DNA of 64,000 nt, from positions 1,364,001 to 1,428,000 of the forward strand of contig NZ_JACXZA010000001.1 of the NCBI RefSeq assembly GCF_014779765.1, given 5' to 3'. The position numbers and the translations under genes are program-made. Shown piece by piece: positions 18,602 to 63,696 of this stretch (positions are counted from its first letter, which is position 1; each line of letters opens with the position of its first letter). Source of the DNA: Paenibacillus terricola. Its GTDB lineage: Bacteria; Bacillota; Bacilli; Paenibacillales; Paenibacillaceae. A model generated the notes under the pieces. It worked only from the letters and a program-made list of their open reading frames with translations, was not told where the DNA came from and did not search any database.

Positions 18602-18732
18602 TTCGGGAGTCCAGAGGGCAATGCCCTTTGGGGTCCTCCCTTGCAGGGAGGATTTAGGCGGGTAGAGAAACAGGGTTACAATGAGGGTGCTAGCCCTTAA
18701 GATATCTGGTTTCATCGAAGTCGGGGGGGGGG
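18602..18732 (+). repeat. G-rich hairpin repeat, partial unit C
   Basis: This is the right part of the element only: GGAGTCC, CCTCCCT-TGC-AGGGAGG hairpin, GGGTAGAGAAA, GGGTTACAATGAGGG, TAGCCCTTAAGATATCTGG and TTTCATCGAAGTCG. It ends in a run of nine to ten G around 18723-18732. Confidence 0.75.
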
Positions 18733-18976
18733 CGTAAGGGGCGCAGCCCCTGACTTCCACAACGTCGAAAAAGAGTTGTACCCCGCAAGGGTACACGACT
18801 CCTAGCACGTTGTCACGGAGCCCCTCCAACAGCCGCTCACACGCCCCTTCCGGGGTCCAGGGGACGGGAGTCCCATGGGGTCCTCCCTTGCAGGGAGGAT
18901 TTAGGTGGGTAGAGAAAATTGGGTTACAATGAGGGCGCAAGCCCTTAAGATATCTGGTTTCATCGAAGTCGAGGGT
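18733..18976 (+). repeat. G-rich hairpin repeat, full unit D (244 bp)
   Basis: A full copy. In order: AGGGGC-GCA-GCCCCT hairpin, GTACCCC-GCA-AGGGTAC hairpin, the CCAACAGCCGCTCACACGCC block, TCCGGGGTCCAGGGGACGGG, CCTCCCT-TGC-AGGGAGG hairpin, TGGGTAGAGAAA, the TTGGGTTACAATGAGGGCG block, GCCCTTAAGATATCTGG, and TTTCATCGAAGTCGAGG. The next unit begins exactly 244 bases later. Confidence 0.85.
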
Positions 18977-19226
18977 CGTAAGGGGCGCAGCCCCTGACTA
19001 CCACACGTCGAACAAGAGTTGTACCCCGCAGGGGTACGCGTCTCCCAGCACGTTGTTAACTCAGCAGCACTATCGCCTCTCAAACGCCTCTTCCGGGGTC
19101 CAGGGGACGGGAGTCCCATGGGGTCCCCCTTGCAGGGAGGATTTTGGTGGGTAGAACAATTGGGTTATAGTGAGGGCGCTAGCCCTTAATCAATAAAGTT
19201 AAGGTTCTAAGGGGCGAAGCCCCTTT
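18977..19226 (+). repeat. G-rich hairpin repeat, unit E and truncated unit F
   Basis: Unit E is a close copy of unit D, with a changed middle (TCAGCAGCACTATCGCCTC) and without the ATATCTGGTTTCATCGAAG end. A last fragment (19207-19226) repeats only the first hairpin as CTAAGGGGCGAAGCCCCTTT. A further hairpin, CAAGGGGC/GCCCCTTG, lies at 19249-19268 just before the ymdB ribosome site. Confidence 0.82.
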
Positions 19227-30860: not shown

Positions 30861-30902
30861 AGATTGGATAAGGGTTTGATCCATCCATAAGCACATAGGT
30901 GC

Positions 30903-30939
30903 AAAAAAACAGGGAGAGCCTAGTGGCTCATCCCTGTTT
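30903..30939. terminator. Bidirectional terminator, adh / bioY
   Basis: AAACAGGGAGAGCC pairs with GGCTCATCCCTGTTT around TAGT. The A run at 30903-30909 is the T tract for bioY on the minus strand. The left arm reaches the bioY stop codon. Confidence 0.85.
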
Positions 30940-44867: not shown

Positions 44868-44954
44868 GGACTATATTGACTTTTGTGATGGGAAGGATAG
44901 ACAAAAAGCATGTCCGATGATATAGTTACTTTCGTTCATTCAATTGGATATGCA

Positions 44955-45165
44955 ATCGAGCAGGTGCTAGTCGGCGATGCAAGTCAGATCGATCCGCACG
45001 GCACAATAGGGAAGCCGGTGTAATTCCGGCACGGACCCGCCACTGTAAGAAGCGCTTGGCATGTAAGATAAACCAAGTAACCGCACCGACACCAGTCACT
45101 GAGGATCTCCTTGGGAAGACGTTGGTACGCGGGCTTCAAGTCAGGATACCTGCCTGTCTCGTACA
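44955..45165 (+). ncRNA. Cobalamin (B12) riboswitch
   Basis: The leader contains core cobalamin-riboswitch blocks: AATAGGGAAGCCGGTG, the CGGCACGGACCCGCCACTGTA block, and the B12-box AAGTCAGGATACCTGCCTG near 45138-45156, with CAGGTGC at the 5' side closing the outer stem. A terminator at 45280 follows. AdoCbl binding should favour the terminator and lower expression of the uptake and salvage genes downstream. Boundaries are approximate. Confidence 0.93.
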
Positions 45166-45279
45166 TGCATCTACCTACGTGGTGTTAGGGAAGGTGTTGG
45201 ATAATCGCTAATAACGTAGTCCTATCTGTTGTCTAGCTGCTAATGCAGTTCTAAGACAGGAGCGAGGATTCGTTGACTG

Positions 45280-53726: not shown

Positions 53727-53952
53727 GTAGGTGCAGAACTGCACCTACAAATCACCAAACCTCGATAAACCATCTCGGTAGGTGCAAACCTGCACCTACT
53801 GATCATTAAACCACGATATCCAATCTCCGTAGGTGCAATACTGCACCAACAGAACGTGAGACTCTCTATATCGAGCCCCATAGGTGCACTAATGCACCAA
53901 CGGTAGATGAGACCAAGAAACTCCACCGCTGTAAGTGCATAGCAGTACCAGC
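53727..53952. repeat. Array 1: five 22-bp palindromes at exactly 51-bp period
   Basis: Copies begin at 53727, 53778, 53829, 53880 and 53931. Copies 1 and 2 are perfect (arms GTAGGTGCA/TGCACCTAC, loops GAAC and AACC). Copy 3 has one arm change (loop ATAC), copy 4 two (loop CTAA), and copy 5 is degenerate. The four 29-base spacers resemble one another (ATCA..AAACC.CGATA...ATCTC in the first two). The array fills the gap between the convergent cbiZ and tetR ends, where no ordinary terminator is seen. Confidence 0.92.
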
Positions 53953-60132: not shown

Positions 60133-62853
60133 GTGAGACGTTTACCTCAATTACCGATTGATGAAGCGATTCCGGAGCTGTTAGAAGCGATGTCGTCCAA
60201 TTCGAACGCGGTGCTGGTTGCTCCACCGGGAGCAGGCAAGACGACGCGCGTACCGCTCGCGCTGTTGGACGAGTCATGGCTTGGCGGCGGCAAAATCATT
60301 ATGCTCGAACCGCGCAGGCTGGCAGCACGTTCGGCGGCTGCGCATATGGCATCGCTGCTTGGCGAGAAGACCGGTGAAACGGTCGGTTATCGCGTTAGGC
60401 TCGATACGAAGGTGAGTGCAGCGACACGAATCGAAGTCGTGACGGAGGGCGTATTGACGCGCATGCTGCAGAGCGACCCTTCGCTCGAAGGGGTGGGCGC
60501 CATTCTGTTCGATGAGTTTCATGAGCGGCATTTGCATGGCGATCTTGGATTGGCGTTGTGTTTGCAGGCACAGTCGCTGCTTCGTGAGGATCTGCGGCTG
60601 CTTGTCATGTCTGCAACGCTCGAGACAGCGCCAGTGGCACGTCTCCTTGGCGATGCTCCCATCATAGAGAGCAAGGGCAGAGCCTTTCCGGTTGAGACCG
60701 TCTATTCGGATCGTCCGGCAGGCTTCAGTTCGGGTGCGCTCTGGCGATCTGAATCGCTTGAGGACCGGACAGCCCGTACGGTTACGGCTGCCCTGCCGGA
60801 TCATGAAGGGGATGTGCTAGTCTTCTTGCCGGGTATGCGCGAGATGCGCCGGGTCGATTCACAGCTGCGCCAGCAGGGTATCGGACGCGGCATGTATGAG
60901 GCAGTCGATATTGTACTGCTTCATGGCAGTATGTCGCTCGAGGAGCAGGGACAGGCCGTTGCGCCAAGTCCATCGGGACGCCGCAAGATCGTACTCGCTA
61001 CATCGATTGCAGAATCATCGATTACGGTTGAAGGCGTCCGCGTTGTTGTCGACAGCGGCATGATGCGGGTACCGCGTTTCTCGCCGCGCACCGGCATGAC
61101 GCGGCTGGAGACGGTGCCGGTGTCGGCGCCGTCGGCCGATCAGCGGCGTGGACGCGCAGGGCGCGTTGCGCCTGGCGTCTGCTACCGTCTGTGGACGGAG
61201 CAGGAGCAGCTAATGCTTGCGCCGCGCAGCACGCCGGAGCTGCTCGAAGCGGATCTTGCGCCGCTGGCGCTCGAGCTCGCCGCTTGGGGCGTCAGCGCGC
61301 CAAGCGAGCTGGCGTGGCTCGACGAGCCGCCAGCCGGCGCCTATGCGAGCGCATGCGAGCTGTTGCAGCAGCTCGGCGCGCTCGATCGCGAGCGGCGGCT
61401 GACGCCGCTCGGGCGGCGCATGGCCGCGCTCGGCGCGCAGCCAAGGCTCGCGCGCATGCTGTTGTCCGCGGCGGCGATCAGCCACGCCGCCGCGGACACC
61501 GCGTGCGAGCTGGCCGCGCTGCTCAGCGGCCGCGATCCGCTGCGCGGCGAGCGCAGCGCCGACATCGCGCTGCGGCTTGGCGCGCTTCGCGCGCTCCGGC
61601 GCGGGGCGCCGGGAGGGGCGGGCGGCGGCGTAGACGAAGCCGCCGCCCGCCAGGCGCTCGCGGAAGCGCGCCAATGGCAGCGCGCGCTCGCGCAGGATGG
61701 CGCTGGGGCTTCGCCCAGCGCCGAAGCGCCGCAGGCGCAGCCGTTGCCGCGCGGCGCTAACGAAGCGGCTTCGCCGCACAGCGGCGGCTCGCAAGCCGCG
61801 CCGTCAGCGCGCAGCGCTGTCACGTCGCCGTCGTCACGCAGCGCCGACTCTTCGCTCTCAGCGCGCGACACCGACGCATCGCCTGCTCGCGAGCTGTCGA
61901 TCGGCGCGCTGCTCGCCTTCGCTTACCCCGATCGCGTCGGCCAAGGCCGCGGCGACGGGCGCTTCCTGCTCGCAAGCGGCCGAGGCGCTGTGCTGACGCC
62001 GACGCAGCCGTTGTCGTTCGCCGCCTTTATTGCGGCATCCGAGATGGAAGATGCCGACAGCGAGAGCCGGATTATACTCGCGGCAGATGTTGAAGAAAGC
62101 GAGCTGCATGCTTATCATAGCGATCGAATCTCTGAAGAGGCATCGGTCATATGGGATCGCAGCGCGCAAGCGGTTAGGGCGAGACGCAAGCTCATGTTCG
62201 GTGCGCTCGTGTTGAAGGAAGAACAGATCGCTAAGCCTGACCCCAACGCCGTAACAGCTGCATTGCTGGATGGTGTAAGGGTGGAGGGTGTCTCAATCCT
62301 TCCGTGGAGCAAACAGTCTTCGCAACTGCGGGATCGCATACGCGTCATGCGCCAGTACGATGCAGAATTGCCAGACTTGTCGGAAGAAGCGCTTCTTGCG
62401 TCACTCGAAGATTGGCTCGAGCCGCATGTGTCGGGAATACGCAGCCGCGACGGCCTTCAGAAGCTGAATATGATGCATGTACTGGAAGCGATGCTGTCGT
62501 GGAGCGACAAACAGCGATTGGATGAGCTAATGCCGACTCACATGACGGTGCCAAGCGGCTCACGAATTGCGATTGATTATACCGATCCGGAGCAGCCAGT
62601 GCTCGCGGTCAAGCTGCAGGAATTGTTCGGGTTGCAGGAGACACCGAGGATTGCGAAGGGGAAGCTTCCGCTTACGCTTCACCTGCTGTCACCTGCACAG
62701 CGGCCTGTGCAAGTGACGCAGGATCTAGCAAACTTCTGGCGGAATACGTATTTCGAAGTGAAGAAAGAATTAAAGGTTCGTTATCCGAAGCATTATTGGC
62801 CGGATGACCCGTTCGCGGCAGTGCCGACGAATCGAGTGCGGCCGAGACCGTAA
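60133..62853 (+). CDS. hrpB: ATP-dependent helicase HrpB
   Basis: A 906-residue DExH-box helicase. Walker A is APPGAGKT (30-37), then DEFH (127-130), SAT (160-162), LVFLPGMREMRR and RRGRAGRVAPGVCYRLW. An HA2-type region and the HrpB C-terminal domain (about 760-900, ending YPKHYWPDDPF) complete it. Residues about 470-590 form an Ala/Arg/Ser/Gly-rich, GC-extreme insert without family motifs. The function of HrpB is poorly defined; it is RNA-helicase-like. The GTG has GGGAAGG upstream. No gene follows for 177 bases, which hold palindrome array 2. Confidence 0.92.
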   Translation: MRRLPQLPIDEAIPELLEAMSSNSNAVLVAPPGAGKTTRVPLALLDESWLGGGKIIMLEPRRLAARSAAAHMASLLGEKTGETVGYRVRLDTKVSAATRIEVVTEGVLTRMLQSDPSLEGVGAILFDEFHERHLHGDLGLALCLQAQSLLREDLRLLVMSATLETAPVARLLGDAPIIESKGRAFPVETVYSDRPAGFSSGALWRSESLEDRTARTVTAALPDHEGDVLVFLPGMREMRRVDSQLRQQGIGRGMYEAVDIVLLHGSMSLEEQGQAVAPSPSGRRKIVLATSIAESSITVEGVRVVVDSGMMRVPRFSPRTGMTRLETVPVSAPSADQRRGRAGRVAPGVCYRLWTEQEQLMLAPRSTPELLEADLAPLALELAAWGVSAPSELAWLDEPPAGAYASACELLQQLGALDRERRLTPLGRRMAALGAQPRLARMLLSAAAISHAAADTACELAALLSGRDPLRGERSADIALRLGALRALRRGAPGGAGGGVDEAAARQALAEARQWQRALAQDGAGASPSAEAPQAQPLPRGANEAASPHSGGSQAAPSARSAVTSPSSRSADSSLSARDTDASPARELSIGALLAFAYPDRVGQGRGDGRFLLASGRGAVLTPTQPLSFAAFIAASEMEDADSESRIILAADVEESELHAYHSDRISEEASVIWDRSAQAVRARRKLMFGALVLKEEQIAKPDPNAVTAALLDGVRVEGVSILPWSKQSSQLRDRIRVMRQYDAELPDLSEEALLASLEDWLEPHVSGIRSRDGLQKLNMMHVLEAMLSWSDKQRLDELMPTHMTVPSGSRIAIDYTDPEQPVLAVKLQELFGLQETPRIAKGKLPLTLHLLSPAQRPVQVTQDLANFWRNTYFEVKKELKVRYPKHYWPDDPFAAVPTNRVRPRP

Positions 62854-62885: not shown

Positions 62886-63011
62886 TTTGTACGATAATTC
62901 ATACAAAATCCCAGCGCTGGGCAGCCACGAGCACCACTTTGTACGATAATTCGTACAAAACCCGAGCGCCGGACTGCTCATAGCGCCCTTTTGTACGATA
63001 ATTCGTACAAA
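62886..63011. repeat. Array 2: three 22-bp palindromes at exactly 52-bp period
   Basis: Copies begin at 62886, 62938 and 62990. Copies 2 and 3 are perfect (arms TTTGTACGA/TCGTACAAA, loop TAAT). Copy 1 has one arm change (TCATACAAA). Both spacers are 30 bases, GC-rich and related at their starts (A-CC-AGCGC-GG). The array lies between the convergent ends of hrpB and the LysE-family gene, with no conventional terminator in that gap. Confidence 0.93.
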
Positions 63012-63030: not shown

Positions 63031-63696
63031 CTAGAAATGAAGCAGAACCAAATTCGCGGCAAGCGCTGCATAGATAAGCGCCTCGATAATCGAGAGGCGC
63101 TTATTCCATTTGTTCGATCGGCGCTGGATCGATCCGCCGAGCCATCCCGCAACGATTGATGCGGCACTGAACACAAGAAGTGCTTGTATGATGAACAGTA
63201 AGCCGAGCTGGACCATCTGGAATGGAACATGTCCTTTATCCATCGATACGAATTGGGGCAGCAGAGCAAGGAAGAACAGCGAAACCTTCGGATTGAGTAC
63301 ATTCATCCAGATACCGCGCCGATATAGCGTGCCGAGTGTAACTTCATCCTGTTTCTGATCGGTATCATTGTGGGTATTGATAGCAGTTGTAGTTGTTGGT
63401 TTCGTTGTTTTCTTTCTCGGCCAGGTCTTCCAAGCGAGATAGAGAAGATAGGCAGCCCCGAGCCATTTAACTGCAGTAAAGGCGGCTTCGGAAGACAGTA
63501 CGATGGCGGATATGCCAAGTGCCGCAAGCGATGTATGAACAAGCAGGCCTGTACATAAGCCAAGCGCGACCATAATGCCGCTTCGAGCAGAACGGCTCAT
63601 GCTTTGCGCGATGACGAACAGAATATCAGGTCCCGGCATAAGCGTCAGCGCAATGGCGACGGCAATGAATGAGACAGCAGTTTGTAAATCGATCAT
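63031..63696 (-). CDS. LysE/RhtB-family amino-acid exporter
   Basis: A 221-residue membrane exporter with about six helices. The family start is LMPGPDILFVIAQSMSRSARSGIMVALG and the middle signature is NVLNPKVSLFFLALLPQFV. It likely exports an amino acid or small metabolite. GGAGGAG precedes the ATG (minus strand). Near the 3' end of the coding sequence (63074-63104) is an 11-bp perfect inverted repeat ATAAGCGCCTC/GAGGCGCTTAT. A TATGAT/ATCATA pair lies upstream at 63737-63756. Confidence 0.9.
   Translation of the reverse strand: MIDLQTAVSFIAVAIALTLMPGPDILFVIAQSMSRSARSGIMVALGLCTGLLVHTSLAALGISAIVLSSEAAFTAVKWLGAAYLLYLAWKTWPRKKTTKPTTTTAINTHNDTDQKQDEVTLGTLYRRGIWMNVLNPKVSLFFLALLPQFVSMDKGHVPFQMVQLGLLFIIQALLVFSAASIVAGWLGGSIQRRSNKWNKRLSIIEALIYAALAANLVLLHF

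Follow-up and report, generated by a model that had tools for sequence, protein, structure and literature searches.

Evenly stepped palindrome arrays in Paenibacillus and a predicted nuclease–winged-helix protein family found beside them

Introduction

Why should palindromes stand at even intervals in the gap between two converging genes? The question is raised by a stretch of 64,000 nucleotides from Paenibacillus terricola (NZ_JACXZA010000001.1, positions 1,364,001-1,428,000 of the forward strand; hereafter the window, with the host genome coded G000). Three 22-bp palindromes, separated by steps of 52 and 52 bp, occupy the 177-bp gap between an hrpB-type helicase gene and a LysE-type exporter gene, as an initial annotation of the sequence had described. 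That annotation also pointed to a second array of unrelated sequence (array 1), and it proposed that such arrays keep structure rather than sequence and replace transcription terminators at convergent junctions. Here we report that arrays of this geometry apparently represent a large class of scattered repeats in Paenibacillus-type bacteria, undescribed so far. The window array is probably an orphan copy of a dispersed repeat tied to a nuclease-like protein family, a selfish element akin to repetitive extragenic palindromic (REP) sequences and their REP-associated tyrosine transposases (RAYT).

Results

Arrays of one geometry lie beside genes of one protein family

The palindromes of the window array follow the pattern TTTGTACGA-N4-TCGTACAAA (family F2). 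With up to three mismatches, this pattern matches three times in the window against 0.03 expected, and 32 times in the whole G000 genome against six for a reversed-pattern control. The pattern of array 1 (family F1; Table 1) matches 107 times in the genome at the same tolerance, against two for its control. Among the stretches examined in G000, F2 forms seven arrays of at least two copies plus two single copies; F1 forms at least 18 arrays. The two arrays are indeed unrelated in sequence and belong to separate dispersed families.

Proteins encoded near arrays were clustered across species and then searched with tblastn. A family of small proteins, about 225 residues long and predicted to join a Vsr/I-Bth0305I-like nuclease fold to a MarR-like winged helix, was found beside both F1 and F2 arrays (five sources and six loci by clustering, with tblastn adding loci that hold the whole gene or pieces of it). 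The association was assessed with a detector of tandem palindromes that is blind to arm sequence and accepts a strict period of 50-53 bp. It was applied to 62 member loci: the 30 best by search, 20 more distant ones picked by E-value before their DNA was viewed, 11 others and one from a plasmid record. Arrays were detected at 23/30, 10/20, 4/11 and 1/1 of these, respectively. With the six seed loci left out, 32 of 56 member loci were positive compared with none of 104 distinct control stretches, which comprised 19 hrpB loci of relatives and 85 G000 stretches (113 drawn, nine loci twice) and include an imperfect array at the G022 hrpB junction that the detector misses. Also outside this count are L288 (the F1 seed, positive), L292 (the same place as L268, positive at 50 bp), and L289 and L291 (the broken F2 gene of G000, negative by the strict detector since both of its palindromes are degenerate); L216 and L217, both detector-positive, were excluded as controls since they had been chosen for their array match. 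When any period of 40-66 bp was accepted, 24/30 best loci were positive compared with 2/85 background stretches, and 10/20 distant loci compared with 1/19 controls. A looser detector was discarded as unspecific (7/19 controls positive).

The geometry recurs with many arm sequences. After F1/F2-like arms had been removed by a lenient rule, a period of 51 or 52 bp was found at 16/61 loci, and every other period at no more than one locus. Arms read beside member genes include TCTATATGA, TAAACATGA, TGTATGCGA, TGTGCTGCA, TGTGGTGCA, ATAACTGCA and TCAAGTAGC, together with TAGAGGCGA in P. cellulosilyticus. Arm similarity tracks protein similarity (Mantel test, r = 0.80, reached in 0/5000 permutations) across the 27 loci that remain after removal of duplicates, three awkward loci and proteins more than 85% identical; the arms of L268 and L284 in this set come from weak two-copy arrays with a 50-bp step. 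An element class of constant geometry and diverse arms, as first proposed, is thereby supported, while its reading as conserved structure alone is not, because different arms go with different members of one protein family. A third dispersed family emerged in this way: ATAACTGC, read beside distant members, occurs in 403 copies in G040 and 103 in G008 (reversed control 0 in both), in 7 copies in G027, also a source of that arm, and in 2 in G062, with none in G000, G009, G023 or G026. At the 35 loci where array position relative to the member gene was recorded, arrays lie upstream at 13, downstream at 15 and on both sides at 7.

The partner proteins are predicted to resemble Vsr-like nucleases

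In G000, an intact F1-type gene (C14:43473-44138) lies between two F1 arrays and encodes the likely cognate of array 1. The F2-type gene, beside an F2 array on C11, is broken by an in-frame stop and its C-terminal piece lies apart. An intact F2-type protein is encoded in Cohnella lubricantis. F1-type and F2-type proteins share about 40% identity. For the three proteins tried, Pfam and NCBIfam gave nothing over their cut-offs and PADLOC gave matches only at E > 0.03. Weak profile matches were to DUF559, MTES_1575 and helix-turn-helix (HTH) families; PHROGs gave weak matches only, to families of unknown function or regulators (best E 4e-4), and a sequence search of solved structures returned weak winged-helix matches only.

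In a predicted model (mean predicted local distance difference test score, pLDDT, 76.9), residues 34-144 match the catalytic domain of I-Bth0305I and residues 153-230 match MarR-type winged helices, so that the catalytic domain of the partner family, as modelled, has the fold of the EDxHD/Vsr-like superfamily. The E, D, H and D residues of that superfamily are also present: E57, D69 and H91 are conserved in 59/59 aligned rows and D96 in 57/59. We take these four to be the catalytic set of EDxHD/Vsr-like nucleases.

The family is present, often in several copies, in 241/295 sampled genomes of Paenibacillaceae; the match counts for single genomes may be capped. Among 299 genomes drawn over the phylum it occurs in four, three of which are Paenibacillaceae, G000 included. 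A lone homologue outside Paenibacillaceae (L294, in G430) has no more than a weak palindrome pair at 63 bp nearby. The two-copy F2 pattern gave 0 matches in viral contigs; the protein of a viral homologue gave no match in phage records and matched two plasmid records, including a Streptomyces one (30% over 55%).

The step is fixed and the families are patchy

The step between F2 palindromes is 52 bp in 18/23 cases in G000 and, among the matches listed, in 376/416 cases elsewhere outside P. senegalensis. F1 palindromes are 51 bp apart in 68/80 cases in G000 and 100/109 in the sister genome G057. In P. senegalensis, 114/115 steps between good palindromes measure 51-53 bp; of the 35 steps that involve a degenerate copy, 10 measure 51/52 bp and 25 are scattered over 55-90 bp. 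This species carries a dispersed element (loci among L072-L187) that resembles a miniature inverted-repeat transposable element and bears four F2 palindromes at 52 bp, with conserved flanks. A degenerate fifth palindrome is often present at variable distance, and L152 holds a fragment of the nuclease gene.

F2 (up to one mismatch) occurs in 33/295 Paenibacillaceae genomes, some with a single match, and F1 in 2/295. Among the matches listed, F2 arrays are carried by Paenibacillus oryzae, P. nanensis, P. sp. J5C2022, P. senegalensis and several Cohnella; they are also present in G305 (L216, L217), from another family of the same order. The listed F2 matches outside Paenibacillaceae (Maribellus, Parcubacteria and others) are single palindromes, apart from an overlapping pair at L090, and were taken as chance rather than as real arrays.

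The hrpB/LysE pair is also convergent in G057, G046, G022 and G011; for G003 and G035 the gene caller gave no LysE gene behind hrpB. The gap measures 16 bp in G057 and 19 bp in G046, both without an array, and 263 bp in G011, where the detector was negative. In G022 (L208 1049-1219) the junction holds about three copies, roughly 52 bp apart, of a different palindrome, AACGCACCA...TGGTGCGTT, which was dismissed as a further dispersed family since it has no genome-wide spread in G022. For F1, G000 and G057 have six orthologous array pairs in common, at five regions, with arm identities of 0.83-0.93 and spacer identities down to 0.44-0.64; a 12-copy array of G000 (L041) had no detected counterpart in G057, and copy number differs between the two genomes.

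Mean arm mismatches per F2 copy are 1.7 in G000, where the gene is broken, and 1.38 in P. senegalensis, where the only gene copy seen is a fragment. P. nanensis, with an intact gene, has 0.82; J5C2022, whose gene contains one stop, has 0.61; and P. oryzae, with no gene in the pieces examined, has 0.68. For F1 the means are 1.25 in G000 and 0.92 in G057, with intact genes in both. Array decay does not simply track gene loss, because J5C2022 and P. oryzae combine low means with a damaged gene or none in the pieces examined.

Sequence is conserved within each family

The proposal that structure is kept and sequence is not finds no support within a family. Sequence is strongly kept there, with near-invariance at some bases. 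On each side, about 1% of F2 copies depart from the inner G, and F1 hardly varies in its GTG core. For the most part a change in one arm is not matched in the other, and the usual variant has an unpaired position. At F2 position 7 in P. senegalensis, paired changes on both sides were seen 3 times compared with 21 expected. An RNA hairpin maintained by compensating changes was rejected on the lack of a general excess of such changes, F2 position 7 outside P. senegalensis being an exception. Near-invariant core bases and mostly independent arms point to recognition by a protein rather than to structure alone, and the arm variation suggests a dimeric protein reading each half-site more readily than a sequence-free hairpin. 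Rfam gave no match at gathering score over the window array and only chance-level matches on an F1 array.

The spacers were described at first as about 30 bases long and related. The length is right, at 30 bp each in the window array; their mutual likeness is loose. The view that spacers are unrelated between loci was also rejected, since orienting them array by array reveals a weak, common position-specific pattern (F1 score 47, null -15, sd 7; F2 in all species 93, null -2, sd 4). The repeat unit is therefore a conserved palindrome plus a fast-diverging spacer of 29/30 bp.

No support for terminator replacement by arrays

Independent gene calling with our own simple gene caller gave the same number of convergent junctions in the window, six, as the initial annotation. 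Four of these had been credited with strong bidirectional terminators, which a simple scan did not reproduce: of the four array-free junctions, one had terminator-like sites on both strands, two had them on a single strand, and the one at 30861-30919 had none. The array 1 junction also carries a terminator-like site, on one strand. In all, such sites are present at 8/9 array-bearing convergent junctions and at 31/69 other convergent junctions, an excess that the often greater length of array junctions helps explain. Replacement of terminators by arrays is unsupported, because array-bearing convergent junctions mostly carry terminator-like sites anyway, and most arrays (16/27) lie in tandem gaps.

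The junction of the window array is the sole one of the nine without a site in the simple scan. A second scan found two weak sites there (0.8 expected, sd 1.1), formed by spacer bases and not by palindromes, and no T-run follows the palindrome stems as it would in an intrinsic terminator with a GC-rich stem.

The 27 arrays placed in G000, two of them single copies, comprise 9 in convergent gaps, 16 in tandem gaps, 1 in a divergent gap and 1 over a weak reading frame. For the 25 with at least two copies, comparison with control-stretch junctions no shorter than 100 bp gives a borderline excess of convergent positions (9/25 compared with 21/122, p 0.053) and a small deficit of divergent ones (1/25 compared with 26/122, p 0.047). 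The arrays tend to avoid promoters, as other intergenic repeats do. In tandem gaps, 45 of 69 arrays are nearer to the upstream stop codon than to the next start. F1 spacers are oriented with the flanking tandem genes in 9/11 cases in G000 (p 0.065) and 6/7 in G057 (L020-L042, L228-L236), some of them orthologous and not all independent.

Features of the window

The arrays and their neighbours are collected in Table 1. The window also contains a 243-bp direct repeat of 2.3 copies at 18629-19189 (Tandem Repeats Finder, TRF), a 27-bp tandem repeat of 2.5 copies within the hrpB-type gene at 61799-61866, and a cobalamin riboswitch at 44945-45171 (Rfam RF00174, 89 bits).

Table 1. Coordinates, in window numbering, of the two palindrome arrays and of the genes that flank the window array
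Feature	Position	Strand	Remarks
F2 palindrome copy 1	62886..62907	none	one unpaired position, TCATACAAA
30-bp spacer 1	62908..62937	none	
F2 palindrome copy 2	62938..62959	none	perfect pairing
30-bp spacer 2	62960..62989	none	
F2 palindrome copy 3	62990..63011	none	perfect pairing
hrpB-type helicase gene	60133..62853	+	upstream convergent neighbour; name from the initial annotation, context only
LysE-type exporter gene	63031..63696	-	downstream convergent neighbour; name from the initial annotation, context only
Array 1: four F1 palindromes GTAGGTGCA-N4-TGCACCTAC	53727..53901		51-bp steps; fifth degenerate copy ~53931-53952

Discussion

Taken together, these results are consistent with a model in which each partner protein would bind its cognate palindrome as a dimer, with each arm taken by one monomer. 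Neighbouring sites would lie about five helical turns apart, a spacing that we propose places adjacent dimers on one face of the DNA. The nuclease would then nick or cut array DNA, and repair would copy and expand the arrays and occasionally seed new ones elsewhere, such that array and gene could persist together as a selfish element, in the manner of REPs and their RAYT transposases. As the F2 gene is broken in G000, the window array would be a decaying remnant. Arrays that lack a clear cognate gene, together with broken genes, are in keeping with selfish elements that rise and decay. We infer binding, cutting and movement. A broader formulation, which we hold at about even odds, is that the arrays are a new repeat class, selfish or domesticated, served by a protein family in which every member binds a 22-bp palindrome specific to it and builds phased arrays of 51/52 bp, with the nuclease cutting or nicking between phased sites and so driving the birth, growth and spread of arrays.

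Several observations weigh against the selfish nuclease model. No array was detected within ~1.5-2 kb of 24/56 non-seed members, and G000 encodes a third, distant paralogue without an array. Conversely, F2 arrays without a clear F2-type gene occur in G226 (232 copies; best family match listed, E 9.5e-25), G066 (51 copies, 9e-42) and G112 (36 copies, 6e-23). The partner family stands out by the later tests and not by the initial clustering, in which three clusters of large common families (by eye, of ABC transporter, response regulator and surface-protein type) came from 6-8 sources, more than the five of the partner family. As regards the nuclease assignment, pLDDT falls below 50 at residues 91-100, the region of two of the conserved residues; at position 86 (FEIK/FEIM), 35/59 rows carry M; and Foldseek's own top match is the nuclease Bax1, at low template modelling (TM) score. 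Outside P. senegalensis, F2 position 7 shows 14 paired changes compared with 6.8 expected under independence. The F1 array pairs common to G000 and G057 indicate that arrays can stay stable over long times, and the short hrpB/LysE junctions of G057 and G046 could also reflect array loss. Finally, with hundreds of target sites in one chromosome, cleavage of plain duplex would be hazardous, and the nuclease must therefore cut under restraint or not at all.

Alternatively, the system may serve its host: the winged-helix nuclease may be a domesticated regulator or chromosome organiser, and the arrays its working sites, either as operators for the nuclease gene itself or as clamps where genes end. 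This reading, which we regard as unlikely though worth keeping in mind, draws on the arms of orthologous F1 arrays having been retained while their spacers fell away, on the constancy of the 51/52-bp step, on the near avoidance of divergent gaps and on the arrays that lie up- or downstream of the member gene. It is at odds with a patchy presence even within the genus, illustrated by F1, with copy numbers that range from 1 to 403, with broken genes that have left arrays behind, and with the lack of a constant set of neighbouring genes besides the nuclease.

Two further readings do without the protein. That hairpin arrays at mRNA 3′ ends stop or stabilise transcripts, the idea first put forward for this locus, is improbable in our view. 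The arrays of tandem gaps do lie towards the upstream stop codon, F1 spacers mostly run in the sense of the flanking tandem genes, and many F1 loops read GAAN on the gene-sense strand (by eye). Such an element would nevertheless have to do without compensating changes beyond expectation in general (except at F2 position 7 in species other than P. senegalensis), without an Rfam match at gathering score and without a T-run after its stems, at junctions where terminator-like sites are mostly present anyway. Least probable of all, and by our estimate very much so, are passive tandem repeats that slippage has enlarged, the nuclease gene being a mere bystander. In their locus-specific spacers and their variable copy number, the arrays do resemble Staphylococcus aureus repeat (STAR) elements, as portrayed in the available part of PMC3532100. 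A passive origin is hard to reconcile with a single 51/52-bp period shared by unrelated arms beside one protein family (32/56 loci, 0/104 controls), with arms that track the protein, and with the P. senegalensis steps, held at 51-53 bp between good palindromes and scattered mostly where a copy is degenerate.

The selfish nuclease model links a puzzling intergenic repeat to a specific protein family of most Paenibacillaceae sampled, and it makes the origin and upkeep of the arrays directly testable. If correct, it would also supply numerous naturally occurring protein-palindrome pairs with which the evolution of DNA specificity could be studied, in a setting where specificity keeps changing and geometry stays fixed. 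In the open-licence literature we found no paper linking such arrays to the partner protein, which does not prove that none exists; the available parts of PMC6344855 and PMC10448857 contain nothing on such a link.

How does this system compare with those already described? I-Bth0305I is a homing endonuclease of the EDxHD/Vsr-like type (EDxHD family as described in the available part of PMC6083498); unlike it, the present family adds a C-terminal MarR-like winged helix and goes with multi-copy palindrome arrays. STAR elements, according to the same portion of PMC3532100, are likewise intergenic, with locus-specific spacers, a patchy distribution among species and variable copy number. Their motif there is a GC-rich 14-bp direct repeat, T(G/A/T)TGTTG(G/T)GGCCC(C/A), which was not seen in the F1 and F2 palindromes and spacers inspected by eye; the staphylococcal elements differ from the present 22-bp palindromes with their fixed step and linked gene family.

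Clustered regularly interspaced short palindromic repeats (CRISPR) share the repeat-spacer appearance, the palindromic repeat and the even spacing. Here, however, spacers are mostly related within an array and weakly so between arrays, unlike the unrelated spacers of CRISPR, and the recurrent neighbour is a nuclease family and not a Cas protein, although no search was aimed at cas genes. STAR-like and tandem repeats are mistaken for CRISPRs, as the available part of PMC5294841 recounts, and F1/F2-type arrays could be mistaken in the same way; annotators should take them neither for CRISPRs nor for terminators.

The closest parallel is the REP/RAYT system, also known as REPtrons. In both, short palindromes are dispersed between genes, an enzyme gene lies beside or between copies, and repeats also occur where no clear gene is found. 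Membership was rejected: the Y1/HUH transposase profile PF01797 gave 0 matches in G000, whereas the same profile was found in 5/14 control genomes. REP/RAYT hairpins carry a GTAG or CGTC tag at one end (available part of PMC3733652). Such a one-end tag is absent from F2 and from the other arms read beside member genes; F1 begins with GTAG, but symmetrically at both ends. The palindromes described here stand in tandem, in the same orientation and at a fixed 51/52-bp step, and the enzyme is a predicted Vsr-like nuclease with a winged helix rather than a Y1 transposase. If the model is right, these arrays would show that the REP/RAYT arrangement has been arrived at a second time, independently, through an unrelated enzyme and under a spacing rule.
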